Shown piece after piece: positions 5,303 through 54,896 of a stretch of DNA of 64,000 bases. Made by a program: the position numbers and the translations under genes. How positions within the stretch are numbered: the first letter of the stretch is position 1; every line of letters begins with the position of its first letter. The notes beneath the pieces were generated by a model, which was not told the origin of the DNA, did no database searches, and saw nothing but the letters and a program-made list of their open reading frames with translations. This stretch comes from Pseudomonadota bacterium (lineage in GTDB: Bacteria; Pseudomonadota; Gammaproteobacteria; Burkholderiales; Rhodocyclaceae). The stretch covers positions 38,624-102,623 of the forward strand of contig JAFEFC010000020.1 in NCBI GenBank assembly GCA_018240785.1, read 5' to 3'.

Positions 5303-8300
5303 ATGACTGAAACCACCACCAGTGCGGCTGCGCCGAGCGCCCTGCGACGCTATGCACGCGCCGCGAAGTGGGTGGCGGGCGTGCTCGTCGCCGTGGCCGC
5401 GATCGGCTTCGGCGTGGTGCCGCCTGTAGCGAAACACTATGCGACGAAGATTGCCAGCGACGTGCTCGGGCGCGTGGTGAGCGTGGACGCGGTGCGCGTC
5501 AACCCCTTCGCATTGACGGCGGAACTGCACGGCGTACGCGTGATGGAAGCGGACGGCAGCACCGAGGCCCTGGGTTTCGACATGCTGCGCGTCAACGGCG
5601 AGCTGGAGTCCCTCGTCCGCGGTGGCGTCGTACTGCACGAGGTGTCGCTCGACGGGCCGCGGGTGAACGTGGTGCTGCAGGACGGTGGGCGGAGCAACTG
5701 GCAGGACGTGCTCGACCGCCTCGCGGCGCAGCCGAAGAGCGAATCCAAGGGCCAGACGCTGTTCTCGATCGGCAACATCCACGTCGGCAACGGCCGTATC
5801 GCCGTCAATGACCAGCCGCGCGGCCTCAAGCACGAACTCAGCGGCATCGAGCTCGGCGTGCCCTTCGTGTCCAACCTGCCGGTGAAGGTGGATGTCTTCA
5901 TCGAACCCAAGTTCGCGGCGACGCTCGATGGCGACCCGATCGGGCTGAGCGCGCGCAGCAAGCCGTTCAAGGACACGCACGAAACCATCCTCGAGCTGGC
6001 GCTGAAGGAGTTCGATCTCGCGCCCTGGATGGCGTACCTGCCGTTCGAGCCCAGCTTCCGCCTGCCTTCCGGCCTGCTCACCACCAACCTGGAACTGGCT
6101 TTTGCGCAGCCGCCCGAAGCGGACGCCAAGCCGCTGGTGACGCTGCGCGGACAGGTGCAGGTGGAGAAGCTCGAAGTGCAGGACAAGACCGGCGCGCCCG
6201 CGGTGAAGGTGGCCGAGTTCGGACTGGAGCTTGCCGACGTCGAGCCCTTCGCCAACAAGTGGCATTTCACCCGCCTCCGCCTGCACCAGCCGGAAATCGA
6301 TCTCGTGCGGCTCAAGGATGGCGGCATCAACCTGGCGACGCTGGCGCCGCCGCCGTCCAAGGACCCTGCCCAGAACGCGCCGCAGGCCGATGAGGCCAAG
6401 CCGTCGCAGCCCGACTTCCTGCTGGCCGATGCGCGCATCCGCGAAGGCGTGGTGCGGCTCGAGGACCGCTCGCTGGCCGACCCTTTCCGTGCCCGCGTCG
6501 AGGCGATCAACCTCGACATGCGCGACCTCGCCAACACCGGCGACATGCCGGCCGAAATCCGGCTCGACTACGTCACCGACGGCGGCGAGAAGATCACCCA
6601 CGAGGACAAGCTGAGCCTGGCTCCTTTCGTCTTCGAAGGCGCGGCCACACTGGAAGCGATCAAGCCGGCGCGCTATGCAGCCTATGCCGCGGCGGCCTTG
6701 CCCGGCGGCGAGTTGCGCAGCGGCCAGCTCGACGGCTCGGTGCACTACCGCGTCGCGCTGAGTGCTGACGGCAAGCCCGACATCAAGGTCGGCAGCGACA
6801 ACCTTTCACTGCGCGATTTCGCGCTTGCGCTGAAGGGGCAGAAGGAGCCGGCGGTTCGCGTGCCCGAGCTCAACGTCAACAAGCTCGCGGTCGACGTCGG
6901 CGCACGCACCGTGAATCTGGCCGAGCTTGGCGTCAAGGGCGCTTCAGTGTCCGCCGTGCGCCTGAAGGACGGCCGCTTCGACCTCCTCGGACTCACCGGC
7001 GACAAGCCCAAGCCCAGCAGCGAGGGACCGGATTGGGTGGTCAAGGTGGACAAGCTGGCGCTCGAGAACGCTGCCGTGCGGCTGGAGGATCGCACCGTGG
7101 CGAAGCCCGTCGTCCTCGTGGTCGACGGGATCGGGCTGCAGCTCGACAACGTGTCGACCGCCAAGGGGGCGACGACGCAGCTCAAGCTCGATTCGCACAT
7201 CAACAAGCGCGGCCGGCTCGGCGCCAGTGGTGCGGTGACGCTGGAGCCCCTGAAGGCCGAGCTGAAGCTCGATCTGCGCAGCGTCGACCTGTTGCCGCTG
7301 CAGCCCTATGTGCTGGAAAAGACCAAGATCGCGATTTCGCGCGGCAACCTCACCACGCGCGGCAGCCTCGACCTGAACACGGCGAAGAACGGTAGCCTGC
7401 TCGGGCGCTTCAGGGGCGACGTCGGCGTGGCCGACTTCGCTTCGATCGACAAGCTCAATGCCACCGACTTCGTGCGCTGGCGCGCGCTCGACGTCGGCGG
7501 CATCGACCTCAAGCTGCAGCCTTTTGCGCTCGACATCGACAAGGTCGCACTGAACGACTTCTACACCCGCCTGATCCTCGATGAAAAAGGCCGCCTGAAC
7601 CTGCGCGAGATCCGCGGTGATGGCAGCGAGGCCGAGCCGGAGGCGAAGGCCGGGAGGCCCGCCGCCGAGGCCCCTGTGGCGGCTGAAGGGCCGGCGGGCG
7701 TCGGTGCGCCGCAGGCGGCCTCGGGCACAGACAGCGGCAAGCGCAGCGCCGAGCTGCCGCCACGCCGCGAACCGCCGCCGCCGATCCGTGTGGGCCGCAT
7801 CGACGTCAAGGGCGGCAATGTCGCCTTCAGCGACCGCTTCATCCGTCCGAACTACAACGTCAACCTGACCGGCATGGCGGGCTCGCTCACCGGCCTTTCG
7901 TCCGACCCGACGACGATCGCGAAGCTGGATCTCAGCGGCAAGGTGGACAACGCGGCGCCGGTCAAGGTCGTTGGCGAGCTCAACCCTTTCCGCCAGGATG
8001 CCCACCTGGACATCCTCGCCACGGTAAAGGACTTCGAGCTGACTGGCCTGTCGAGCTACTCGGGCAAGTACGTGGGTTACGGCATCGCCAAGGGCAAGCT
8101 GTCGGCCGAACTCAACTACAAGATCGAGGATCGCAAGCTCACCGCGACCAACCAGATCTTCCTCGACCAGCTCACCTTCGGTGACAAGGTCGACAGCCCC
8201 GATGCGCTGAACCTGCCGGTGCAGCTCGCGGTGTCGCTGCTGAAGAACGCGCGCGGCGAGATCGACCTCCACCTGCCGGTCAGCGGCACCCTCGACGACC

Positions 8301-14609: not shown

Positions 14610-14727
14610 GGCCCGCCGCTTCGGCTACCCGCGCTTACATACTTGCACGCCGTCAGGCTCCCCATCGCCTCCCATCCCCGGCACAATGCCGGGCTTGCCG
14701 CCAACGGCTCCCGTTTCCGACCTCCCG

Positions 14728-15984
14728 ATGCGTTATGAATTTCTCGTCGGCCTGCGCTACACCCGCTCACGCAAGCGGGCGCAGGGCCGCAACCGTTTCA
14801 TTTCCTTCATCTCCCTGGTATCGATGCTGGGCATCGCGCTGGGCGTCGCGGCACTGATCGTGGTGCTGTCGGTGATGAACGGCTTTCAGGAGGAACTGCG
14901 CACCCGCATCCTCGGCGTCGCCTCGCATGTGCAGATCCAGCGCATCGACGGCGGGCTGGCATCGTGGCAGCAGGTGGCCGACGAGGCCGGACGGCACCCC
15001 TCGGTGATCGCGGCGGCGCCATACGTGCAGGAACAGGGCTTGCTGTCCTTCGGCGAAGCGGTGCGCGGCACCATGGTGCGCGGCGTGATCCCGAGCGAGG
15101 AGGACAAGGTCGCCGACTTCGCCCGCCACATGAAGGCCGGCGCGTTCGACGCGCTGCAGCCGGGCCGCTTCGGCATCCTGCTCGGCCGCGACCTGGCGCT
15201 GGCGCTGCGCGTCACGCTGGGCGACAAGGTCACGCTGATCGCGCCGCAGGGGCTGGTGACGCCTGCCGCGGTGCTGCCGCGCGTCAAGCAGTTCGAGGTG
15301 GTCGGCATCTTCGAGGCCGGCATGTATGAGTACGATTCGGGCCTCGCGCTGATCCACCTCGCCGATGCCCAGGCGCTGTACCGCATGGGCGAAGACGTGA
15401 CCGGCGTGCGGCTCAAGCTCGACGACCTGTTCGCTGCGCCGCGGGTGGCGCGCCAACTGGCCGCCAGCCTGTCGGAGCCGGATCTCATCGTGGCCGACTG
15501 GACGCGCGCCCACGCCAACTTCTTCCGCGCGGTGGCACTGGAGAAGACGATGATGACGCTGATCCTGTTCCTGATCGTTGCCGTGGCCGCCTTCAACATC
15601 GTGTCCACGCTGGTGATGGCGGTGCAGGAGAAATACGCCGACATCGCCATCCTGCGCACGCTGGGCGCGAGCCCGGCATCGATCATGACGGTGTTCGTGC
15701 TGCAGGGCACCATCATCGGCTTCGTCGGGCTGGCCGCCGGCGTGGTCGGCGGGCTGCTGATCGCGCACAACCTCGATGTGGTGATTCCCGCGCTGGAGGG
15801 CGTCACTGGCATGACGCTGTGGAACAAGGAGGTCTATTACATCAACGAGCTGCCCTCCAAGGTGCTGTGGAGCGACGTGGTCAGCATCGTGTCGGTGTCT
15901 TTCCTGCTCACCCTGCTGGCGGCGCTCTATCCGAGCTGGCGGGCGTCGAAGGTGAATCCGGCGGAGGCGCTGCGCTATGAGTGA
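14728..15984 (+). CDS. lolC: Lipoprotein-releasing ABC transporter permease LolC/LolE
   Basis: A 418-residue inner-membrane permease that hands outer-membrane lipoproteins to LolA. It has the FtsX/LolCE architecture: TM1 near residues 25-50 ([27 protein letters not shown]), a large periplasmic loop, then three C-terminal TM segments ([18 protein letters not shown], a middle one, [31 protein letters not shown]). I start at the ATG at 14728 ([15 protein letters not shown]), the conserved beginning. The stop overlaps lolD by 8 bp. Only one permease gene is present, so it probably forms the homodimeric LolF type or pairs with a LolE elsewhere. Confidence 0.93.
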
Positions 15985-41777: not shown

Positions 41778-42076
41778 GAAGTGGAGGAATAAAAACATAT
41801 TGACTCTCCTGAAACGTCAAGCCCAAAGGAATGCCAGGCGACCGGAATACGCATGACCGCTGTATCTATAATGGCGAGCAGCTTATTCGTGAGGCGTTTC
41901 CGTCATGCGGCGCAGCAGTGTTTCCGCCGCGCCTGCAAACCGATCAATATGACGCTCGCCAGCTCAAATGCATGAGCGGAAAACCATGGCCGGCCGTTTG
42001 CGCAAAACCGTAAGTTCTAAGTTCCTGGAACTCGCTCGACTCCGCGCTGCTGGTGCCGGCGGATATTGGAAGGCCT
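41778..42076. other. AT-rich intergenic stretch between toxin-antitoxin pair and helicase
   Basis: About 300 bp, clearly less GC-rich than its surroundings. It has a TATAAT at 41867-41872 without a good -35, and a GGAAGG ribosome site right before the helicase start. A 60-codon ORF at 41831-42013 has no recognizable domain. No repeat, tRNA fragment or integrase site is seen. Confidence 0.5.
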
Positions 42077-45000
42077 ATGGCATTACCTGACGGTCTCTAT
42101 GACCAGCTACTGACAGAGGCGCTTCTGGAGGCCGTCGTCAGGAGAACTGAAGAGCATAGCCATACCCTCAAACCCCTCACCGCCGAAGACGCCCCTGAGC
42201 GATTGGCCGATGCGCTTGCCTCCCAACTTTCCAGAATCCTTGATGACCTCCACGGTGACGGCGCGGAGAAGCTCCGCCAGCAGCTCGACCTCGTCAATTT
42301 CCTCCTCGTCAGCTTAAAGCAGCGCCTCGGCAAGCGCGCAGGCGACGCTGAGACGCTGTCCGTTCCGCCACAGATTCTCCAGGCCATACACCAGCAGTCG
42401 CCCAAGCCGGCGATCCCGGAGACCGGCCTGGCCTTCCCCTGGCTCTTCACCGCTGGGAAGGGCTCGCCGTCGTTGCTGACCGAGTTGCGCCGCGAGCTGG
42501 CGGCCTGCGATCAGGTGGACATCCTGGTGAGCTTCATCACGCATTCGGGCGTGCGCAAGCTGCTCGACATCCTCCAGTCCATCACCGCGGTCGGGCCGGA
42601 TGGCAAGTCGCGCACGCGGCTGCGGGTGCTGACCACCACCTACACCGGCGCCACTGAGATCCTGGCGCTGGACGAACTTGCCCGGCTGCCAGGTTGCGAG
42701 ATCCGGGTGTCGCTGGACGGCCGTCGTACCCGACTGCATGCCAAGGCCTGGCTGTTTCGTCGCCGCACGGGCTTTGGCTCCGCCTACGTGGGCAGCGCCA
42801 ACCTGTCGGGTGCCGCGTTGATGGGCGGACTCGAATGGACGGTGAAGTTCACCGAGCGCGGCCAGCCCGATCTGTTCGAGCGCGCCAGCGCACACTTCGA
42901 GACGCTTTGGGAAGACAACGAGTTCCAGCGCTACGATTCCGCCGACCCCGCGCACCGAAAGGCCCTGGGTGAGGCGCTCAAGCGGGAGTCCGGCGACGAT
43001 CTCGTTGCTCGCCCGACCTATTTCGACCTCGAGCCCAAGGCCTACCAGCAGGAGATGCTCGACCAACTGCAGATCGAGCGTGATCATGGTCGCTGGCGCA
43101 ATCTGGTCGTGGCTGCGACGGGCACCGGCAAGACGGTGGTGGCGGCGTTCGACTACAAGCGGCTCTGCCTGCAGGTGGGCGGGCAGCCGCGGCTGCTCTT
43201 CGTCGCGCACCGTGAAGAGATCCTGAAGCAGGCGCTGCGGACCTATCGCGAGGTACTTCGCGACCACGCGTTTGGGGAATTGCTGGCCGGTGGTGCGCAG
43301 CCTGAGCGCTTCGACCATCTGTTCGCCACCATCGACAGCGTGTCCGCACGTGAGTTGGTTTATCGCTGCGGCGAGGATTACTGGCACACCGTGGTGGTCG
43401 ACGAGTGCCACCGCCTGGCGGCTGATCGCTTCCATGCCTTTGTGAGCGTGGTGCGTCCACGCGTGCTGCTCGGCCTGACGGCGACCCCAGAGCGCAGCGA
43501 TGGCAAGCCGATCCTGAACTACTTCTGCAATCGGCCCGATGGATCGCCAGCGGTCGAGCTTCGGCTCTGGCATGCGCTCGATCAGCAGTTGCTGTGTCCC
43601 TTCGAGTATTACGCCTGCGACGACGAGACGGATTTCTCAGCCGTGCCCTGGCAGCAGGCAGGGGAGGTGGCGGCGATCGAGAAGCTCGTGACTGGAAACG
43701 ATGTGCGTGCGCGACTGGTGCTCGACGAGTGGCGGCGCCTGACGGGCGACCCGACGCGTGGGCGCGCGTTGGTGTTCTGCGTCTCCGTGGCGCATGCGCG
43801 GGACATGACCGCGCGGCTGAACCAGGCCGGCATCAAGGCGATATGCGTCGTCAGCGATACCCCCACCGATGAACGCAGGCGCGCGCCCGAACTGCTGGCA
43901 CGCGGCGAGGTTGTCGCGCTGGTGACCTGCGATCTTTACAACGAGGGCGTCGACCTGCCGCATGTCGATACCCTGCTCTTGCTTCGCCCGACGCAGAGCC
44001 CGGTGTTGTTCCAGCAGCAGATTGGCCGCGGCTTGCGTCTGGCCAAGGGCAAGGAAAGCTGCCTGATCCTCGACTTCGTCGGCCGGCACCGTGAAGAGTT
44101 TCGCTTCGATCGTCTGCTGTCGACGATCACCGGACTCTCCCGTGCGCAGTTGATCGAGGCGTTAGACAAGGGCTTCGGCATGCTGCCGCCCGGTTGCCAC
44201 ATTCACCTGCAGCGCCAGACGCGAGAGCAGGTTCTGCGCAGCCTGCGCAAGCTGGTGCAACAGAACTGGCGCAGGCTGAAGACGGAACTGCAGGCCTATG
44301 CCGCACTGCGCGGACGGACGGACATTGAGCTCGCGAGCTTCCTGAGTGAGCAGGCGATCGAACTGGATGATCTCTATCGCAGCAGCGGTCGCTCGGGCTG
44401 GACCAATCTCAAGCGCGATGCGGGGCTGCTGAGCACGCCGCCCGGCAGTGAGGATGATTACTTCGGGCGTCGATTCGGTAGTCTGCTGCATATCGACGAT
44501 CCGGCGCGGACCGATCTGCTGCTCTCACTGCGAGAGCCCGAGGCCGCCTACCGTGCGCAGAACGATAGGGATCGCCTCTTGTTGCAGATGCTCGCCTATC
44601 AGGTCGACGCGCAGCAGCATCAAAAAGGGAGTGGCAATGACTTCCTAGAGCGGCTGCAGCGGCACCCCGAGCAGGCGGTTGAGCTTGCCGAGCTTGGCGG
44701 GATCTTGCAGGCGAGAAGCAGCTTGCGGACGCGGCCCGTTCCGGGCCTTGAGAATGTGCCGCTTTGCCTTCACGCGGCCTACGGCATTCGCGAGATTCTG
44801 ACTGCTCTCGGTTGGTTGAGTCCGGTCCGGCGCACGCCTTTTCAGGCGGGGGTACTTGCGCTGCGTGAGCGCAAGGTCGAGTTGCTGTTCGTCACCCTCG
44901 ACAAGCGCGCGGGCTATCACGAACGCATCGCGTACCGTGACTATGCGATCAGTCCCGAACGGTTTCACTGGCAGTCGCAGAACTCGGCGGGGCCGGAGAC

Positions 45001-45211
45001 CCCTGTGGGCCGTCGCTATCTGGAGAGCCCCGGCAACGGCTGGCGTTTCCAGTTGTTTGTTCGCACGGATCCCAATGCTCCTTACCATGCGTGCGGCCCG
45101 GTGACGCTGGAGCGCGCGGAAGGAGCGAAGCCGATGAGCATTCACTGGCGGCTCAGCGTGCCCTTGCCGAGCCGCCTGTTCCGAGAATTCAGCATTTTGC
45201 GGGGCGAATGA
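42077..45211 (+). CDS. PLD nuclease-like / SF2 helicase / DUF3427 protein
   Basis: A 1044-residue multidomain protein. Residues 1-110 are helical and of unknown type. Residues 115-280 form a phospholipase-D-like domain with one HxK (H221, K223) and GSANLS (239-244). The SF2 helicase follows: motif I ATGTGKT (347-353), DECH box (442-445), LTATPE (467-472) and motif VI QQIGRGLRLAKG. Residues from about 680 to the end match DUF3427. The ATG at 42077 has a GGAAGG ribosome site. Such fusions are frequent in defence islands, and the RES/Xre pair next door fits. I infer a single-gene restriction or anti-phage nuclease-helicase; this is not proven. Codon use is less GC-biased than in neighbours. Confidence 0.88.
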   Translation: MALPDGLYDQLLTEALLEAVVRRTEEHSHTLKPLTAEDAPERLADALASQLSRILDDLHGDGAEKLRQQLDLVNFLLVSLKQRLGKRAGDAETLSVPPQILQAIHQQSPKPAIPETGLAFPWLFTAGKGSPSLLTELRRELAACDQVDILVSFITHSGVRKLLDILQSITAVGPDGKSRTRLRVLTTTYTGATEILALDELARLPGCEIRVSLDGRRTRLHAKAWLFRRRTGFGSAYVGSANLSGAALMGGLEWTVKFTERGQPDLFERASAHFETLWEDNEFQRYDSADPAHRKALGEALKRESGDDLVARPTYFDLEPKAYQQEMLDQLQIERDHGRWRNLVVAATGTGKTVVAAFDYKRLCLQVGGQPRLLFVAHREEILKQALRTYREVLRDHAFGELLAGGAQPERFDHLFATIDSVSARELVYRCGEDYWHTVVVDECHRLAADRFHAFVSVVRPRVLLGLTATPERSDGKPILNYFCNRPDGSPAVELRLWHALDQQLLCPFEYYACDDETDFSAVPWQQAGEVAAIEKLVTGNDVRARLVLDEWRRLTGDPTRGRALVFCVSVAHARDMTARLNQAGIKAICVVSDTPTDERRRAPELLARGEVVALVTCDLYNEGVDLPHVDTLLLLRPTQSPVLFQQQIGRGLRLAKGKESCLILDFVGRHREEFRFDRLLSTITGLSRAQLIEALDKGFGMLPPGCHIHLQRQTREQVLRSLRKLVQQNWRRLKTELQAYAALRGRTDIELASFLSEQAIELDDLYRSSGRSGWTNLKRDAGLLSTPPGSEDDYFGRRFGSLLHIDDPARTDLLLSLREPEAAYRAQNDRDRLLLQMLAYQVDAQQHQKGSGNDFLERLQRHPEQAVELAELGGILQARSSLRTRPVPGLENVPLCLHAAYGIREILTALGWLSPVRRTPFQAGVLALRERKVELLFVTLDKRAGYHERIAYRDYAISPERFHWQSQNSAGPETPVGRRYLESPGNGWRFQLFVRTDPNAPYHACGPVTLERAEGAKPMSIHWRLSVPLPSRLFREFSILRGE

Positions 45212-46155: not shown

Positions 46156-48948
46156 TCAATCCACCGCCCGCTGCAGCACGCCGATGGGCGGTGCCCAGTC
46201 GTTGCCCGGCTGCTTCTTGCGCGTGACCAGCGTGAGCTGGGCGGGGGCGAAGACATTGGCGTTGTGGGTCACCGGGGTAGTGATGAGGTATTGCGCGCGG
46301 GTGGCGCGCAGGAAGGTGCCGACGCGGTCGATGTTGGCGACGTCCAGGTGCGCGAACGGCTCGTCGATGAAGACGAAGCCGCCGGGGCGGGCGTCGTCCA
46401 TCAGCAGGCCGATGAGCAGGATCAGCGACTTCATGACCTGCTGGCCGCCCGAGGCTTCGCCGTCGTTGAGACCCACCGCGCCCTTGCGGTCGAAGTCGAA
46501 GCGCACTTCCAGACCGGCCTGGGCGAGCGAGACGTCGTCGTTTTCCAGGTGCGGGGTGGGGCAGTCCACGCTGACGTTGGCGAGCTCGCCCAGCGCCTTC
46601 AGGTTCTTGGCGTACTGGCGCACCGTGGCGCGCAGCTTGGCGATGTAGGCGGCGCGCGCGGCTTCGGAGTGCTTGCGTGCGGTGGCGCAGTAGCCCTGGC
46701 GGTCGCGGTAGTCGCGCTCGCGCAGCGCGACGTCGGCGGCGAGGCGGTCGCGCACGGTGAGCACCGCCGGGTCGGTGATCCAGTCGCCCTCGTCGAGATG
46801 GCGGCGCAGGCGGTCGGCCTGCAGGCGGGCGCCGCGCGCGTCGCCGTACCTTTCCGCGAGCAGCGCGAGATCGGCTGCATCCAGCCAGTGCGCCGGCATG
46901 CCGCGCCGGCGGCGGCGCAGGCTCAGGATGCGTTCGGCCTGGGCGCGGCGGCGCGGGCCGTGCTCGCGCGCGATGTCGGCCAGGCGCAGGTCGATCGCCT
47001 TCTGCTCGCGCACGCGGCGGTCGACCTCGATCTGGATGCCGCTCAGCTTCTCGCCCAGCGCCTCCAGCGCGCCGCGCGTGTCCGCGCGGTCGGCGATGGC
47101 CTCGGTGAGTGCCTTGCGCGCCTGCGGCAGCTCGGCTTCGGCGGTGGCGTAGCGCTCGGCGTTGGCGGCCAGCAACTGGGCCGACTGCAGGCCGAGCATG
47201 CGCTGGCGCAGCGAGGCGAGGCGGGCGGCGGTTTCGTCCAGCCTGGGGCGCAGCGCCTGCAACTGCTTGTCGAGGCCGGCGATCTCGTCCTGCAGCGCGG
47301 CGATGCGTGACTGGCGGGCGAGTTCGCCGAAGTGGAACTCCTGCGGCCGGCCGAGGTGGCGCGCGCCGCGCCGTTCGCGGTGGTAGCCGTCTCGGGTGAT
47401 CCATTCCTGCTCGCGCGGCAGGTCGCGCGCCGCGTCGGCATCCTCGACGCGGCGGATGCGGTTGAGCAGGTCGGCGAGCCAGCGCGGCACCGGCGCCGAG
47501 AACTGCACCACCTCGGCCAGGCTCAGCGGCCGCGGCGGCGGCGCGGGCTCGCGCTCGGCGACGATGAAGTGGCGGAAGCGTTCGCGCTCGCCCAGCGCCC
47601 AGGCGGCGTGGCGGTCGCCTTCGCGCTCGAGCAGGATCAGGTGGCGGTAGGGCCGCAGGATGGCTTCCAGCGCCGCCTGCCAGGCGGGGTCTGTGACTTC
47701 GACGACTTCGGCCAGGCTGGCGTGGGCGATGCCCTCTGCGCTCAGCCGCACGCGGAAGCGCGCGACTTCGGCATCGCCCGGCGGACCGCTGCGATTGCGC
47801 TCATGGCGCAGGGTCTCGCTGCGCTCCTCGAAGGCGGCGACGAGCTGACGTTCCTTGGTGCGCAGGTGGGCGAGCACGGCGTCGGCTTCGGCGTGCTGCT
47901 GCTCCAGCGCGACGGCGTCGGCGCCGTGCTCGGCAGCGAGCTGGGCGCGCAGGGCGTCGCGCTCGGCGAGCAGCTTCTCCAGATCGCGCACGCGGTCGTG
48001 CGCGGCGAGGTGGCGCTGCTCGGCGTCGCCGTCGTGCTGCTTGAGGCGCTTGCGTTCGGCGGCGGCGGCGTCCTGCTCCGCCTTCAACTTGTCGAGTCGG
48101 GCGCGCGCCTCGCGCTGTTCGGCGAGCTTCTCGCTGCGCTCGTGATCCACGCGGTGCAAAGCCTCGCGCTCGGCGGCGATCTCGCGCGCCAGCTCGGCGA
48201 CCTCCAGCCGCGGCACGATCTCGGCCTGCAGCGCCCGGGCCTCGTCGGCGAGCTGCTTCCATTCCAGGTAGCGGTTGGCCTCGGCCTTCTTCTCCTCGGC
48301 CTGGGTCTTCAGCCGGTCGAGGTCGATGCCGAGCTCGTCCAGCTCGCGCTCGGCGTTCTTCTGTTCCTCGCGCGCGGCCTGGTAGTTGTCCAGCACCTCC
48401 TTGTCGCCGAAGACGTCGAACACCAGCTCGAGCAGAGCTTTGGGCGAGTATTCGCACAGCTTGTCGGTGTCGCCCTGTTCCAGCGCCAGCACCTTGGTGA
48501 TGGCCGGCGTCAGTCCGCCCCAGGCGAGCCGGTTCTGGTAGTCGCGCAGGCCGATCCAGTCGCTGGTGGCCTCCAGCGCCTCGATGTCCTGGTCGCCGTC
48601 GACGATCGTGTAGTCGCGGATCCAGTCGCCGCCAGCCTTGCGGATGCGGCAGGCGAGGGTGACTTCGTCCGACAGACAAGGGAAGAAAGGCCGCCGGCCG
48701 GTGCTGCCGGGCAGGTTGGCGACGATGGCGCGGATCCACGCAAAGCTGCGGTCGGCGCGGCGCACGTAGCGGCGGAAGTCGCGCTTGCCCGAGCAGCGCA
48801 GCGCGAACAGGGTGCGCAGCGCATCCAGCAGGGTGGTCTTGCCCGAACCGTTGGGGCCGACGATGGTGATGATCTGGGCGTCGAGCGGCAGCGAGAAGCG
48901 GCGCCAGAAGTCCCAATGGACGAGTTCTAGGGTCTTGATGTGGAACAT
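46156..48948 (-). CDS. SMC-like ATPase of a Muk/Mks-type complex
   Basis: A 930-residue SMC-family protein. The N-terminal head has Walker A GPNGSGKT (31-38) and the Q-loop LALEQGD (about 158). Two long charged heptad regions (about 190-410 and 610-800) flank a hinge-like globular segment (about 430-600, LAEVVEVTDPAWQAALEAIL ... LSLAEVVQFSAPVPRWLADLL). The C-terminal head has the signature ASGGQ (832-836) and Walker B FVFIDEP (858-864), then an H-loop-like TTPVTHN. It is shorter than MukB and comparable to MksB or Wadjet JetC. Kleisin-like and KITE-like genes lie 1.5 kb upstream on the same strand, separated by two opposite-strand genes. Confidence 0.87.
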   Translation of the reverse strand: MFHIKTLELVHWDFWRRFSLPLDAQIITIVGPNGSGKTTLLDALRTLFALRCSGKRDFRRYVRRADRSFAWIRAIVANLPGSTGRRPFFPCLSDEVTLACRIRKAGGDWIRDYTIVDGDQDIEALEATSDWIGLRDYQNRLAWGGLTPAITKVLALEQGDTDKLCEYSPKALLELVFDVFGDKEVLDNYQAAREEQKNAERELDELGIDLDRLKTQAEEKKAEANRYLEWKQLADEARALQAEIVPRLEVAELAREIAAEREALHRVDHERSEKLAEQREARARLDKLKAEQDAAAAERKRLKQHDGDAEQRHLAAHDRVRDLEKLLAERDALRAQLAAEHGADAVALEQQHAEADAVLAHLRTKERQLVAAFEERSETLRHERNRSGPPGDAEVARFRVRLSAEGIAHASLAEVVEVTDPAWQAALEAILRPYRHLILLEREGDRHAAWALGERERFRHFIVAEREPAPPPRPLSLAEVVQFSAPVPRWLADLLNRIRRVEDADAARDLPREQEWITRDGYHRERRGARHLGRPQEFHFGELARQSRIAALQDEIAGLDKQLQALRPRLDETAARLASLRQRMLGLQSAQLLAANAERYATAEAELPQARKALTEAIADRADTRGALEALGEKLSGIQIEVDRRVREQKAIDLRLADIAREHGPRRRAQAERILSLRRRRRGMPAHWLDAADLALLAERYGDARGARLQADRLRRHLDEGDWITDPAVLTVRDRLAADVALRERDYRDRQGYCATARKHSEAARAAYIAKLRATVRQYAKNLKALGELANVSVDCPTPHLENDDVSLAQAGLEVRFDFDRKGAVGLNDGEASGGQQVMKSLILLIGLLMDDARPGGFVFIDEPFAHLDVANIDRVGTFLRATRAQYLITTPVTHNANVFAPAQLTLVTRKKQPGNDWAPPIGVLQRAVD

Positions 48949-49124
48949 CGGCAGCTCGGGGTGGGGCGCGCCCGCGGGCGACGCGGGCTGGGGGCGACAT
49001 GCGAGGCGCGAAGTGTACCGAGGGCCCCGGGCGCCGGCAAACTGCGTGAAATGAGCTGCATCAATGCGGTGTGGCGGAGGCGCCGCAACAATGCCCGGGT
49101 CCAAGAACCTCAGCGAGGCAGCCC

Positions 49125-49754
49125 ATGCAGTTTCCCGATTTCTTCCGTCTCGTGCCGCGCATCCGCGTGCGTGATCCGCTGGCCGAATTCCTCGGTGCCG
49201 CCGAGGGCGGGGTGCTGGAGTATGGCTATGAGGACGCGGTGCGGCTCGCCGGCCATTCCTGCCCGACGGTGGCCTCGGCCTTCGTGATGGCCTGCCGGGC
49301 GATGGCGCTGTTGTATCCGGGCGAACTGCCCGAGCGTGGCGGAGTGCGCGTCGATTTCGCCGAACCGCTGGAGCATGGCGTCACCGGTGTCATCGCCAGC
49401 GTGCTGACGCTCATCACCGGCGCGGCGCAGCAGGGCGGCTTCAAGGGCATCGCCGGGCATTTCGTCCGCCGCGACCTGCAGGCCTTCCATTCCGACATCC
49501 CGCTGACGTTGCGCGTCACCCGCCTCGATACCGGCGCGGCGATCGACGCGGCCGCCGACCTGTCGCGCGTGCCGGCTGCACCGGAAATGTCCGGGCTGCT
49601 GCAGCGCTGCATCCGCGGTGAGGCGGACGAGGCGCAGCGCCGGCAGTTTGCGATCTTGTGGCAGCAGCGCGTGCAACGCATCCTGCTCGAACACTGGGAC
49701 GACGACGCGGTGTTCCACTTCCGCACTCACGCAACCGATACGGCGCACTCCTGA
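49125..49754 (+). CDS. FmdE-domain protein
   Basis: A 209-residue protein whose first 130 residues resemble the FmdE family (subunit E of formylmethanofuran dehydrogenase and stand-alone relatives). The metal-binding GHxCP motif is present as LAGHSCPTVASAFVMACRAM, and GVTGVIASVLTLITGAAQQGGFKGIAG is the glycine-rich continuation. A helical C-terminal extension follows. There is no methanofuran pathway in sight, so the function is unknown. The stop is 2 bp before the amidotransferase start, so the two genes are translationally coupled. Confidence 0.75.
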   Translation: MQFPDFFRLVPRIRVRDPLAEFLGAAEGGVLEYGYEDAVRLAGHSCPTVASAFVMACRAMALLYPGELPERGGVRVDFAEPLEHGVTGVIASVLTLITGAAQQGGFKGIAGHFVRRDLQAFHSDIPLTLRVTRLDTGAAIDAAADLSRVPAAPEMSGLLQRCIRGEADEAQRRQFAILWQQRVQRILLEHWDDDAVFHFRTHATDTAHS

Positions 49755-49756
49755 CC

Positions 49757-50455
49757 ATGCACGCACACATCCTGCAGCACGTCGCATTCGAGGGCCCCGG
49801 CAGCATCGGCGCCTGGCTGGAGATGGCCGGCTACGACCTCGGTTACACCCGCTTTTTCGAGGGCGAAGCGCTGCCCGATCCGGCCACCGTCGACCTGCTG
49901 GTGGTCATGGGCGGGCCGATGAGCGTCAATGACGAGGCCGAATTTCCCTGGCTGGCCGCCGAGAAGCGTTTCATCGCCGACATGGTCCGCAGCGGCCGGC
50001 CGGTGCTGGGCGTGTGCCTGGGGGCCCAGCTCATCGCCAGCGCGCTGGGCGCGCGCGTGTCTCGAAATCGCGAGCGTGAGATCGGCTGGTTTGCGATCGA
50101 AGGCGTGGCGCACGAGGACGCGTCGCTGTTCCGCTTTCCGCCGTCGGTCGAGGTCTTCCACTGGCACGGCGAGACTTTCGATCTGCCGGCAGGCGCGGTG
50201 CGCCTGGCGCGCAGCACGGTCTGCGACAACCAGGCCTTCCAGCTCGGCAAGACGGTGATCGGCCTGCAGTTCCACCTCGAGACCACGCCGGGCTCGGCGC
50301 AGCAGCTCGTCGACCATGGCCGCGCCGAACTGCAGCCGGCGCCTTACGTCCAGTCCGAGGCCGAGATCCTCGCCGCGCCGATCGACAAATACCTGGCGAT
50401 CAATGACCTGATGGGCGAGGTGCTGGCGTTCCTGCGCGCTGCCGGCGGGCGCTGA
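49757..50455 (+). CDS. Class I glutamine amidotransferase-like protein
   Basis: A 232-residue protein of the GMP-synthase glutamine amidotransferase type. The nucleophile elbow is GVCLGAQLIA and the His/Glu pair is in IGLQFHLETT; MGGPMSVNDE is the oxyanion region. It lacks a synthetase domain, like many stand-alone GATase1 proteins that act as gamma-glutamyl hydrolases or deglycase-like enzymes. It is coupled to the FmdE gene. Substrate unknown. Confidence 0.87.
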   Translation: MHAHILQHVAFEGPGSIGAWLEMAGYDLGYTRFFEGEALPDPATVDLLVVMGGPMSVNDEAEFPWLAAEKRFIADMVRSGRPVLGVCLGAQLIASALGARVSRNREREIGWFAIEGVAHEDASLFRFPPSVEVFHWHGETFDLPAGAVRLARSTVCDNQAFQLGKTVIGLQFHLETTPGSAQQLVDHGRAELQPAPYVQSEAEILAAPIDKYLAINDLMGEVLAFLRAAGGR

Positions 50456-50475
50456 AGCGGGCGGGGGCGGCCGCG

Positions 50476-51180
50476 TCAGGCGTCCCCTTCATCCTTCTCT
50501 TCATCCTCGGCGTCGGCGGCGGCATCCGCCGCATCTGCCTGCGGCAGGTTGTGCCCGGCAGCGGCGAGCACCTCGCCCAGCGTGCCGTGGATGATGCGGT
50601 CGGCCATCACGCGGTAGTCGAGTGCCACGTCGAGCAGCGGACCTTCGCCGATCACGCCGTTGCGGCGCTCGATGAAGCCCAGGCGGGAGAGCTTGCCCAG
50701 GGCGATGCCCATCTTCGTCTTGCCGCCCAGGCGCGGTCCGAAGTCGGCCAGCAGCGACGCCTCGGACAGGCTGCCGGACACGCTGTCGCCATGCGCCACC
50801 GGCTTGTCGCCGCCGAACATGTCCGCCTGGCCGTCGTCGACGACTTCGCGGCGGGTGACCTGGCGCTCGCGCTTGGGCAGCACGATCAGCGACCAGATCA
50901 CCACCAGCAGCGCGATCTCGTCGCGCCCCAGGCCGAGGTTGCTGGCGGCGTATTCGCGGCCGGCGCCGAACACCGGTTCGGCCATGTCGGGCTGCAACGC
51001 CACGCCGACATGAGCGGCGTAGGGGTTGTCCAGCAACTGCATGCCGACTTCGGCCAGGCGGCGGTCCAGTTCCAGGCGGAAGCTCTCGTCGACCAGCGCG
51101 CGGCGCACCAGGCGGTCGTTGCGCGGCAGCCAGCGCTGGGCGAGCAGGCGGGCGGTGAGGGTCCTGATGTCGTGATCCAT
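50476..51180 (-). CDS. MksE-like (KITE) subunit of an SMC complex
   Basis: A 234-residue protein with the layout of MukE/MksE (DUF4194-like) subunits: an N-terminal RNDRLVRRALVDESFRLELDRRLAEVGMQLLDNPYAAHVGVAL module, a winged-helix core (DEIALLVVIWSLIVLPKRERQVTRREVV ... ASLLADFGPRLGGKTKMGIALGKLSRLGFIERRNGVIGEGPLLDVAL) and an acidic tail rich in Asp, Glu and Ala. It starts 10 bp after the kleisin-like gene. The assignment is by pattern and context, not by a profile search. Confidence 0.75.
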   Translation of the reverse strand: MDHDIRTLTARLLAQRWLPRNDRLVRRALVDESFRLELDRRLAEVGMQLLDNPYAAHVGVALQPDMAEPVFGAGREYAASNLGLGRDEIALLVVIWSLIVLPKRERQVTRREVVDDGQADMFGGDKPVAHGDSVSGSLSEASLLADFGPRLGGKTKMGIALGKLSRLGFIERRNGVIGEGPLLDVALDYRVMADRIIHGTLGEVLAAAGHNLPQADAADAAADAEDEEKDEGDA

Positions 51181-51190
51181 GGGGCGGTGC

Positions 51191-52510
51191 TCAGGCAGGA
51201 AGGGGGGCGTCCGGGGTGCGCGGGTCCCGGTCCGAAGCTGGACGCGAAACTCGGCGCGAGACGTCGCCGGCATTGATCGCGGCGATCTCGTCTTCGCCCA
51301 CCGGCACGAGCGTGTCGCCGAAGCGCACGTCGAGCGGCAGGCGCATGAAGTCGGCGACAGGGCCGCTGGCCGGGCTGGCGTCCTCGCCGTCGGCCAGCAG
51401 GGCGAGCAGCGACAGGCGGTAGCTGGCCAGCGCGAAACCGCCGCCGGCGACGACCCGGTGCAGCGGTTGTGCGTCCGGCAGTGTCTCGAGCCTGCGCGTG
51501 AAATGCTGCAGCAGGGCGAGGTCCTCGCTTTCGGGCGCGAGGCTGACCGGCGCGGCGTCCGCTGGCGGCAAGGGGGCCTCGGCGCCGCTGCGCAGGCGCT
51601 CGTCGCCGAGCGCCGATTCGGCGCGGTCGAGCAGTTCGTGGCCGCCCGCGAGCAGCGGCACATCGGGCACCAGCGCCAGCGCGTCGGCGGCCAGCGCGGC
51701 GACCGTGGCCGCATCCAGCCGGCGCAGCCAGGCGGCGACGTCCGACGACGAAATGCCCGAGCCGCCCAGCGTGACCCGCTGTGCCTCGATCTTGTTCAGC
51801 GCGCGCTGGAAGGCGGCGTCGACCCGCGCCAGCCGCGACTGCGCGAGACCGATGCGCTGCGCGATGCGGGCGATGTCGAAATCCACCTCGGGGTCGGCCA
51901 GCAGCGCGTTGAGCAGCTCGGTGCCGCGCTGCAGCCAGCGGCCGTTGGCCGACAGCCGGCGGCGGGCGTCGAGGATGCGGAACTCCGAGCCCGAGGCGAT
52001 CGCCTCCTCGAAATGCCAGGTGAGGTCGTTGAGCTTGGACAGCAGGTGGCCGAGCGATTCGGCATTGATGCCGCCCACCGCCTGCAGGCCGGCGAGCTGG
52101 GCAGTGAGGAAGCCGAGCTCGGCGTCCTCCTCCTCGCCGAAGCGCAGCAGCATGGCGATCGCCGCCACCGCGTTGCGGCCCATGTCCGACAGGTGGTACA
52201 GGCCGTCCTCGCCGATGCCGAGCAGCGTGTTGTCGCGCAGGCGCTTGAGCACGGTCTCGAGCTTGACCGCATCCAGATAGACGAAGCGGGCGCGCAGCGC
52301 TTCCGGCGACCAGCGCGGTGCTTCGGCTTCGCGGCCGATCTCGCGCAGCACCAGCAGGCGCATCAGCACTTCGGCCTCGGTGCCGCGGAACAGCGTGATG
52401 AAGGCGTCGAGCAGCGGACGCGCGGCATGCAGCGCGGTCAGCTCGGGCACTTCGTCTGCGTCGACGCCGGGGGCGAGGAAGTCGTGATACGGGGCGGAGA
52501 TTTCGTTCAA
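51191..52510 (-). CDS. MksF-like (kleisin) subunit of an SMC complex
   Basis: A 439-residue protein with an N-terminal winged-helix region (LLDAFITLFRGTEAEVLMRLLVLREIG ... LRDNTLLGIGEDGLYHLSDMGRNAVAAI), a long helical middle (LNDLTWHFEEAIASGSEFRILDARRRLSANGRWLQRGTELLNALL) and a C-terminal domain, the general plan of MukF/MksF kleisins. The start is probably TTG at 52510 (LNEISAPYHDFLAP) with an AGCAGG ribosome site: the only upstream in-frame ATG, 52678, lies beyond a TATAAT at 52619-52614 that is likely the promoter. It is followed after 10 bp by the MksE-like gene. Confidence 0.72.
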   Translation of the reverse strand: MNEISAPYHDFLAPGVDADEVPELTALHAARPLLDAFITLFRGTEAEVLMRLLVLREIGREAEAPRWSPEALRARFVYLDAVKLETVLKRLRDNTLLGIGEDGLYHLSDMGRNAVAAIAMLLRFGEEEDAELGFLTAQLAGLQAVGGINAESLGHLLSKLNDLTWHFEEAIASGSEFRILDARRRLSANGRWLQRGTELLNALLADPEVDFDIARIAQRIGLAQSRLARVDAAFQRALNKIEAQRVTLGGSGISSSDVAAWLRRLDAATVAALAADALALVPDVPLLAGGHELLDRAESALGDERLRSGAEAPLPPADAAPVSLAPESEDLALLQHFTRRLETLPDAQPLHRVVAGGGFALASYRLSLLALLADGEDASPASGPVADFMRLPLDVRFGDTLVPVGEDEIAAINAGDVSRRVSRPASDRDPRTPDAPLPA

Positions 52511-53791: not shown

Positions 53792-54896
53792 TCAGACGCC
53801 CTGCTTGAGGCTCGCCGCGATGAAATCGTCGAGGTCGCCGTCGAGCACCGACTGGGTGTTGCCCACTTCGTGGTTGGTGCGCAGGTCCTTGATGCGCGAC
53901 TGGTCGAGCACGTAGCTGCGGATCTGGTGGCCCCAGCCGATGTCGCTCTTGCTGTCTTCCAGCTTCTGCTGTTCGGCCTGGCGCTTGCGCAGTTCCAGCT
54001 CATACAGGCGCGCCTTCAGCATCGACATCGCCTCGGCCTTGTTCTTGTGCTGCGAGCGGTCGTTCTGGCACTGCACCACGGTGTTGGTCGGCACGTGGGT
54101 GATGCGCACCGCCGAGTCCGTCTTGTTGATGTGCTGGCCGCCGGCGCCGGAGGCGCGGTAGGTGTCGATGCGCAGGTCGGCGGGGTTGATCTCGACCTCG
54201 ATCGATTCATCCACTTCCGGGAACACGAACACCGAGGTGAAGCTGGTGTGGCGGCGCGCGTTGGAGTCGAACGGGCTCTTGCGCACCAGGCGGTGGATGC
54301 CGGTTTCGGTGCGCAGGAAGCCGTAGGCGTATTCGCCGCTGATCTTGATCGTGCAATTCTTCAGGCCGGCGACTTCGCCTTCGGTTTCTTCCAGCACCTC
54401 GACGCCGAAACCCTTCTTCTCGCAGTAGCGCAGGTACATGCGCTCGAGCATGCCGGCCCAGTCCTGCGCCTCGGTGCCGCCGGCGCCGGCCTGGATCTCG
54501 ATGAAGCAGTTGTTCGGGTCCATCGGGTTGCTGAACATGCGGCGGAACTCGAGCTTCTCGACTTCCGCCTGCAGGCCGCCGAGGTCGCCTTCCACCGCTT
54601 CGAAGGTGTCGTCGTCGTTCTCGGCCTCGGCCAGGTCGTAGAGATCCTGCAGGTCGCGCGCCTGGGCGTCGATCTTCTGCAGCGTGACCACCACGTCCTC
54701 GAGCTGGCGCTTCTCCTTGCCCAGCTCCTGCGCGCGCTCGGCGTTGTTCCACACGGCCGGGTCTTCCAGCGCGCGATTGACCTCTTCGAGCTTCGATGCT
54801 TTCACATCGTAGTCAAAGATACCTCCGTAGTTCGCGGCCCCGGGCGCCGAGGTCGGCGAGTTTTTCGGCGATGGCATTGAGGCGTTCGGCGTCCAT
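53792..54896 (-). CDS. prfB: Peptide chain release factor 2, with programmed +1 frameshift
   Basis: RF2 releases peptides at UGA and UAA. The gene is in two frames: codons 1-27 from ATG 54896 ([20 protein letters not shown]...) end at an in-frame TGA (54815-54813). The slip site CTT-TGA-C, with CGGAGG three bases upstream, shifts ribosomes +1, and reading continues to 53792 for a total of 367 residues. The GGQ loop is in [18 protein letters not shown] and the stop-recognition SPF in [14 protein letters not shown]. This autoregulatory frameshift makes RF2 output respond to its own level. It is not a pseudogene. Confidence 0.96.

Follow-up and report, generated by a model that had tools for sequence, protein, structure and literature searches.

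A divergent Wadjet/MksBEF-like SMC complex lacking JetD in a Thauera-like genome, probably an accessory condensin

The window analysed here is a stretch of 64,000 nucleotides (contig JAFEFC010000020.1 of assembly GCA_018240785.1, positions 38,624 to 102,623) from a Thauera-like genome, whose nearest row by kleisin and KITE sequences is Thauera sp. 2A1 (95% identical). It encodes a three-gene structural maintenance of chromosomes (SMC) locus that we read, with a probability of roughly 0.66, as a divergent Wadjet/MksBEF lineage that has lost its nuclease and would now act as an accessory condensin beside Smc-ScpAB. Open reading frame analysis places the locus at 46156-52510, with all three genes on the minus strand:

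46156-48948, minus strand: SMC ATPase subunit (JetC/MksB-like), ATG start, 930 residues, assigned by motifs, Pfam and hhalign (nearest JetC); with boundaries set by us, heads at ~1-210 and ~770-930, coiled coils, and a hinge at ~390-560
50476-51180, minus strand: KITE-like subunit (JetB/MksE-like), 234 residues, with a predicted winged helix at ~137-179 and an acidic C-terminal tail
51191-52510, minus strand: kleisin-like subunit (JetA/MukF/MksF-like), TTG start, 439 residues, assigned by structure model and Foldseek; predicted layout of an N-terminal winged helix, long helices and a C-terminal helix-and-strand domain

The kleisin-like and KITE-like genes are 10 bp apart, while 1527 bp and two plus-strand genes lie between the KITE stop and the SMC start. 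The first-pass annotation, which had described these three subunit genes with the last two 10 bp apart and the ATPase gene about 1.5 kb away behind two opposite-strand genes, is borne out. An alternative SMC start at an upstream TTG (49104) would give a protein of 982 residues; most relatives have 929-931.

The best reading of the SMC subunit is that it is JetC-like. An alignment of 12 SMC proteins, that of the window among them, shows no variation in what we take to be Walker A (GPNGSGKTT, apart from its proline, which is nearly invariant), the signature motif (GEASGGQQ) or the Walker B region (FVFIDEPFAHLD). Pfam recovered SMC_N (8.1e-15) as well as SMC_hinge (9.7e-4) and MukB (0.0099), the latter two under their cut-offs. 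Profile comparisons by hhalign used JetC from DUF3375 (JetA) loci, MukB from MukF loci and the host Smc as a single sequence; for these and the other reference sets, JetA (PF11855), MukF (PF03882) and ScpA (PF02616) were chosen by family and the remaining subunits by place and size beside them. The whole SMC protein was nearest to JetC (E 1.3e-18 over 625 columns), followed by the host Smc (1.1e-7) and MukB (1.2e-5), and the same order was obtained with the N-terminal head alone (JetC 9e-13, Smc 1.1e-7, MukB 1.6e-6); the hinge also aligned with that of JetC (143 columns, E 0.0038). Similarly, the best PADLOC match was JetC1 (2e-25, mostly coiled coil and hinge). Several comparisons weigh against a specific kinship with JetC: the C-terminal head alone was about equally near MukB (1.8e-4) and JetC (1.1e-4), the best matches of the SMC profile among PDB sequences were Smc heads (2.1e-6), with JetC farther down at 7.6e-4, and the best NCBIfam match was SMC_prok_B (6.1e-34), but with 117 of the 567 bits needed. 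The initial proposal of a Muk/Mks/Wadjet-type SMC complex is supported.

The two partner proteins are far more diverged, and their identity is carried mainly by weak fold matches, which is the softest part of the argument. AlphaFold2, given alignments of 26 rows for both proteins, produced a fair model of the kleisin-like protein, with a mean predicted local distance difference test (pLDDT) score of 79.7 and a predicted template-modelling score of 0.45. The KITE-like model was poor (pLDDT 58.9), containing one winged helix at residues ~137-179 (pLDDT mostly 70-80) and a less sure N-terminal half. When searched by Foldseek against the PDB (350,542 chains), the kleisin-like model had MukF or MukBEF chains at ranks 1-5 and 10, with a best E of 3.1e-3, a template-modelling score of ~0.2 and no match at E 0.001. 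The first rank for the KITE-like model was JetB of Pseudomonas aeruginosa JetABC (8dk1_F, E 0.12), and a chain of an Nse1-Nse3-Nse4 complex stood ninth. The top match of each model is thus the type of protein that its operon position would predict, albeit at weak E-values.

Sequence profiles were close to silent on these two subunits. DUF4194 (the JetB family) matched four of 15 members of the KITE-like family (best E 0.0033), not including the window's own protein, and PADLOC JetB1 matched one of the 15 (E 0.0098), whereas no JetA or other kleisin model from Pfam or PADLOC matched any of 15 kleisin members. The window's own kleisin-like and KITE-like proteins had no Pfam or PADLOC match, including none to the ScpA and ScpB families, and searches of PDB sequences yielded nothing for the kleisin and one chance-level match for the KITE (E 0.36). 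Comparison of both families by hhalign with JetA, JetB, MukF, MukE, ScpA and ScpB was likewise negative, a result that would count against the assignment but was set aside because the known pairs JetA-MukF and JetB-MukE failed too. The profile check proposed in the first-pass annotation, under which placement outside the KITE and kleisin families would have told against the assignment, accordingly did not place the 234- and 439-residue proteins outside those families; the profiles said little either way, and fold comparison, with its weak E-values, is the main support. The acidic C-terminal tail of the KITE-like protein is common to many family members and short or missing in loci L077 and L079.

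No JetD partner was found, in agreement with the first-pass annotation. A tblastn search of the window with the JetD proteins of eight relatives gave no match at 1e-3, a JetD profile gave none in the host genome (12 of 46 first-look candidates scored), and PF09983, a model that is weak on this JetD group, gave none in the host genome up to E 1. A correction to that annotation is that JetD is not foreign to the family. A minority of relatives carry a JetD-like gene of ~400-430 residues behind the SMC gene: among 52 loci that include the SMC C-terminus, it was present in 11 (L058 being cut by a contig end), lacking in 36 and undecided in five. The 36 JetD-less loci, which include the window, each have at least 2 kb of downstream sequence, and the 52 include a copy of the window (L097). 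A JetD-like gene also occurs in seven of 40 loci sampled across the order, one of them cut by a contig end, and among 150 genomes of the window's family the kleisin was found in 41, JetD in nine and both in eight. The genome with a JetD match and no kleisin match (G084) is 79% complete.

The assignment of the relatives' gene to JetD was made because PADLOC JetD1 models matched all six proteins scanned (best 4.8e-15) and because the TOPRIM residues are conserved, with the glutamate and the DxD motif kept in 10 of 10 aligned proteins and, when the set is extended to the order-level loci and a further relative, both kept in 16 of 17 site-covering proteins. Pfam DUF2399 was above its cut-off in two of six JetD-like proteins, and hhalign of the relatives' set against the JetD of DUF3375 loci was negative. 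In locus L177 the JetD frame (5556-6836, minus strand) has histidine in place of the second aspartate of the TOPRIM DxD, and the nuclease is possibly on its way out. Three loci of family f266 (L190, L196 and L202) carry a diverged JetD branch behind SMC (E ~1e-66 to 2e-65) that has kept the TOPRIM residues.

How JetD came to be distributed in this way was approached through phylogeny. A kleisin and KITE tree was built with 83 rows, omitting L001 because it duplicates the window, and the JetD label was counted on it without the 11 rows that have no JetD status. This tree requires 12 changes of the label, and well supported branches force 11 of them. An SMC tree that includes other families (66 rows of our choosing, the piece of L193 lacking an SMC gene) requires nine, of which seven are forced. 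Because some 11-12 changes are needed on the kleisin and KITE tree, the ancestor was probably a complete JetABCD system from which JetD was repeatedly lost. The SMC tree mostly follows the family codes, as expected of mostly vertical descent, the exceptions being L208 (f262), which falls within f250, and L094 (f1) and L093 (f2), which fall beside f6; JetD-less clades on this tree span whole families.

Two points weigh against a history of simple loss. The tree is unrooted and does not fix the polarity of the changes, and the JetD of L034 (Thauera butanivorans; 14614-15918, ~0.7 kb behind SMC) groups with Pseudothauera against the tree of the complex, a conflict that implies at least one transfer and suggests re-acquisition, so that JetD can be regained. 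The reverse history, in which an old three-gene condensin gained JetD several times, would draw on the same transfer and on the many JetD-less clades, some of them deep in the unrooted tree. It is harder to reconcile with JetD distances that track those of the complex (Mantel r 0.75, p 1e-4, 11 taxa) and with JetD genes that start within ~5 bp of the SMC stop, or overlap it, in the distant loci L090, L096, L047 and L063. We consider gain unlikely as the general course, while recognising that it concerns history and overlaps with the explanation that we favour.

The separation of the SMC gene from its partners is a derived condition rather than a mark of the subfamily, as which it was considered and rejected. 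Kleisin and KITE genes lie within 50 bp of each other in 69 of 74 loci, and KITE and SMC genes within 110 bp in 44 of 73 (20 with a one-base overlap; the distance is greater in 29), the usual arrangement being a contiguous kleisin-KITE-SMC operon. Where the KITE-SMC junction is interrupted, the intruders differ: a glutamine amidotransferase and an FmdE-like gene in the window and some Thauera, and a tRNA-U5-methyltransferase-type gene in L036 and L037. Because the genes are close together in most loci and the intruders vary among Thauera lineages, the split is taken as derived; the suggestion that it might characterise a distinct subfamily thus fails for the arrangement, while the distinctness of the subfamily itself is supported. 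Of the 40 order-level loci located via KITE, 39 carry all three genes. In L056 the SMC gene is elsewhere in the same genome, ~10 kb downstream by coordinates if the contig is the same record, and in L096 (2123-3098) the SMC gene lacks its middle (only query positions 1-112 and 725-930 matched) although kleisin, KITE and JetD frames are present, reflecting either an assembly fault or a real deletion.

The surroundings of the three genes in the window include the following:

49012-49040, minus strand: TTGCCG-N17-TACACT, a promoter-like element in front of the displaced SMC gene, read by eye
49071-49754, plus strand: intruding gene, FmdE-like at best (Pfam E 0.02 here and 1.2e-4 in L032, both under cut-off)
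49757-50455, plus strand: intruding class I glutamine amidotransferase (PF00117, 2.5e-19; start codon of our choosing)
53792-54877, minus strand: prfB (peptide chain release factor 2), the upstream neighbour of the complex in the window's bacterial family

The amidotransferase also occurs in L031, L033, L034, L035 and L081, and the FmdE-like gene in these and in L032. The promoter-like element is likely a candidate promoter of the displaced SMC gene, being kept across six aligned Thauera loci (in L081 the second hexamer is TACCCT); a consensus promoter scan called neither this element nor any other promoter. Near the SMC gene, a large ResIII/Helicase_C/DUF3427 protein (42053-45211, plus strand) has a weak PLD-like N-terminal match in Pfam. 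It was considered as a replacement for JetD and rejected, as it was seen in two of 81 loci examined (L031 and L081), many of which are too short to reach its place.

The complex has fixed neighbours on the chromosome. The gene that we take from its sequence to be prfB precedes it in the same orientation in 72 of the 75 loci whose kleisin gene is complete and in 72 of the 72 showing both, and is within 100 bp of the complex in 41 of these 72; it was not on the available pieces of L024, L077 and L079. Farther afield, prfB was seen in only L094 and L095 among eight loci and in none of the 40 order-level loci, for which mostly ~1.2 kb of upstream sequence was covered. A common upstream gene was instead found in eight of eight f262 loci (a family to which an identical SMC row assigns Chitinimonas taiwanensis) and in five of nine f250 loci, and the two examples scanned were GTP1_OBG (obg-type GTPase). 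Among 72,556 plasmid records the window's KITE matched a single 816-kb replicon, and that only in part; none of 50,697 phage records matched it.

Within the window's family the kleisin occurs in 41 of 150 genomes and the KITE at 51 loci, a distribution that is patchy for a core condensin and counts against such a role there. A wider KITE profile (A12), run on 300 genomes from 135 genera of the order, detected the gene in 46 genomes and 25 genera; 40 loci were taken from these 46 genomes, leaving out G000 (the host's own), G050, G442, G498, G943 and G885. A first phylum-level search with the KITE profile gave seven of 398, one of them weak (E 4.2e-4), and an SMC-profile search of 274 genomes of the class returned only the host's own genome, a result not counted as absence, as at most three candidates per genome were scored. 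Family f250 stands apart, with the KITE in 42 of 43 genomes, comprising 42 of 42 of good quality and 11 of 11 genera, and with JetD lacking at all nine loci examined (loci rather than whole genomes). Near-universal occurrence in one family suggests housekeeping work on the chromosome. Loci were located via KITE or kleisin, and because the two sets overlap in species (identical rows in the tree), locus counts should not be equated with counts of independent species.

The JetD-less copies are under purifying selection, as judged from the ratio of nonsynonymous to synonymous substitution rates (dN/dS). Twelve JetD-less pairs, of which some have a member in common, gave ratios of 0.018-0.239 for the three genes, and three JetD-bearing pairs gave 0.080-0.230.

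We propose that the three genes encode a single SMC complex whose ancestor was a Wadjet-like JetABCD system and which has lost JetD. From the families to which the subunits appear to belong, two SMC proteins would join at the hinge while the kleisin bridges their heads and carries KITE dimers, and the complex, powered by ATP hydrolysis, would entrap DNA and extrude loops on the chromosome. Without JetD, an encounter with DNA would not end in cleavage and the motor would remain, making a role as an accessory condensin probable. Given the precedent of Pseudomonas aeruginosa, where MksBEF plays such a part, and the canonical Smc and ScpA found at other places in the host genome, a second condensin working next to Smc-ScpAB is the most likely function. 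Assembly, loop extrusion, the direction of evolutionary change and the chromosomal role are all conclusions drawn by inference. The first-pass annotation had left open chromosome organisation or plasmid exclusion; the former appears plausible, while the latter is ranked as a rival. More broadly, the lineage may represent a class of bacterial condensin that has gone unrecognised, belonging to the core genome of one betaproteobacterial family, perhaps of several, and derived from a defence system by repeated, independent nuclease loss, a proposition that we regard as evenly balanced.

Plasmid exclusion could persist if the complex still sensed small circular DNA and recruited an unlinked nuclease in trans. 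JetABC is described as the sensor part of Wadjet (PMC10586767), and the helicase with the weak PLD-like match lies close to the SMC gene. However, no JetD was found in the host genome by the profile searches described above, that helicase occurs in just two of 81 loci (with the caveat on locus length given above), and the JetD-less loci form the majority (36 of 52, five undecided) and are under purifying selection, making recruitment in trans unlikely. Foreign DNA might also be controlled without any nuclease, with plasmids compacted, silenced or mis-segregated uncut. Plasmids would be a plausible target for Wadjet machinery minus JetD, but a KITE that occurs in every one of the 42 high-quality genomes in one family, and beside housekeeping genes, is unexpected for an accessory defence, and we judge this alternative rather improbable. 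Finally, a Wadjet remnant decaying after JetD loss, to which the patchy occurrence in the window's family (41 of 150) and the SMC gene without its middle in L096 might be ascribed, is rejected as most improbable, since all three genes in the JetD-less pairs have dN/dS of 0.018-0.239 and JetD-less clades span whole families.

None of the titles and abstracts listed in our search, which was confined to open-licence literature, deals with this lineage. Pfam and PADLOC overlook its kleisin and KITE almost entirely, so a complex with a KITE that is near-universal in at least one family may go unannotated. Among relatives of the window, JetD status switches some dozen times, with kleisin, KITE and SMC conserved. 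According to PMC10586767, JetABC of Wadjet resembles MukBEF, with two motors joined via the kleisin N-terminus; JetD is thought to cut once loop extrusion of a small circle completes; and MksBEF, perhaps also MukBEF, is proposed to have derived from Wadjet through JetD loss. Switching of JetD against a conserved three-gene background makes this Wadjet-to-MksBEF idea testable between close species and, if our reading is correct, JetD-bearing and JetD-less close relatives would constitute a natural experiment in the conversion of a DNA-cutting immune motor into a chromosome organiser.

Compared with known systems, the complex resembles Wadjet type I (JetABCD, also MksBEFG) in its kleisin-KITE-SMC order, its JetC-like SMC and, in a minority of relatives, a JetD1-like TOPRIM nuclease behind SMC. 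It differs in that the operon in the window has no JetD TOPRIM nuclease, its SMC is 930 residues long versus ~1120-1180 in DUF3375 loci, the Pfam and PADLOC models for JetA and JetB do not match the window's proteins (the host's single PF11855 match, under cut-off, is on another contig), and the locus is fixed near prfB or an obg-type GTPase, with a KITE that is near-universal in one family. General SMC design is shared with Smc-ScpAB, whereas the partners match no ScpA or ScpB family and the host's canonical Smc and ScpA lie elsewhere, which separates the two systems. Similarly, MukBEF has the same subunit types and gene order, and MukF is the best, if weak, match of the kleisin model, but the SMC is much shorter (930 versus 1484-1508 residues), as a whole it is farther from MukB (1.2e-5) than from JetC (1.3e-18), and the MukF family PF03882 was not found in the host. 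Another counterpart is MksBEF of P. aeruginosa, an F-E-B complex without JetD beside Smc, and the window likewise holds kleisin, KITE and SMC genes without MksG, the kleisin and KITE identity being mainly fold-based; this likeness is one of gene content. MksBEF of P. aeruginosa is said to stem from JetD loss and, next to SMC, to help organise the chromosome (PMC10586767), and both condensins of this species are reported to organise and segregate the chromosome (PMC7485682). The gene order in Pseudomonas is mksFEBG and P. putida KT2440 has a split mksB gene (PMC10123090), a different kind of split from that in the window, where a whole SMC gene has been displaced from its kleisin and KITE partners.

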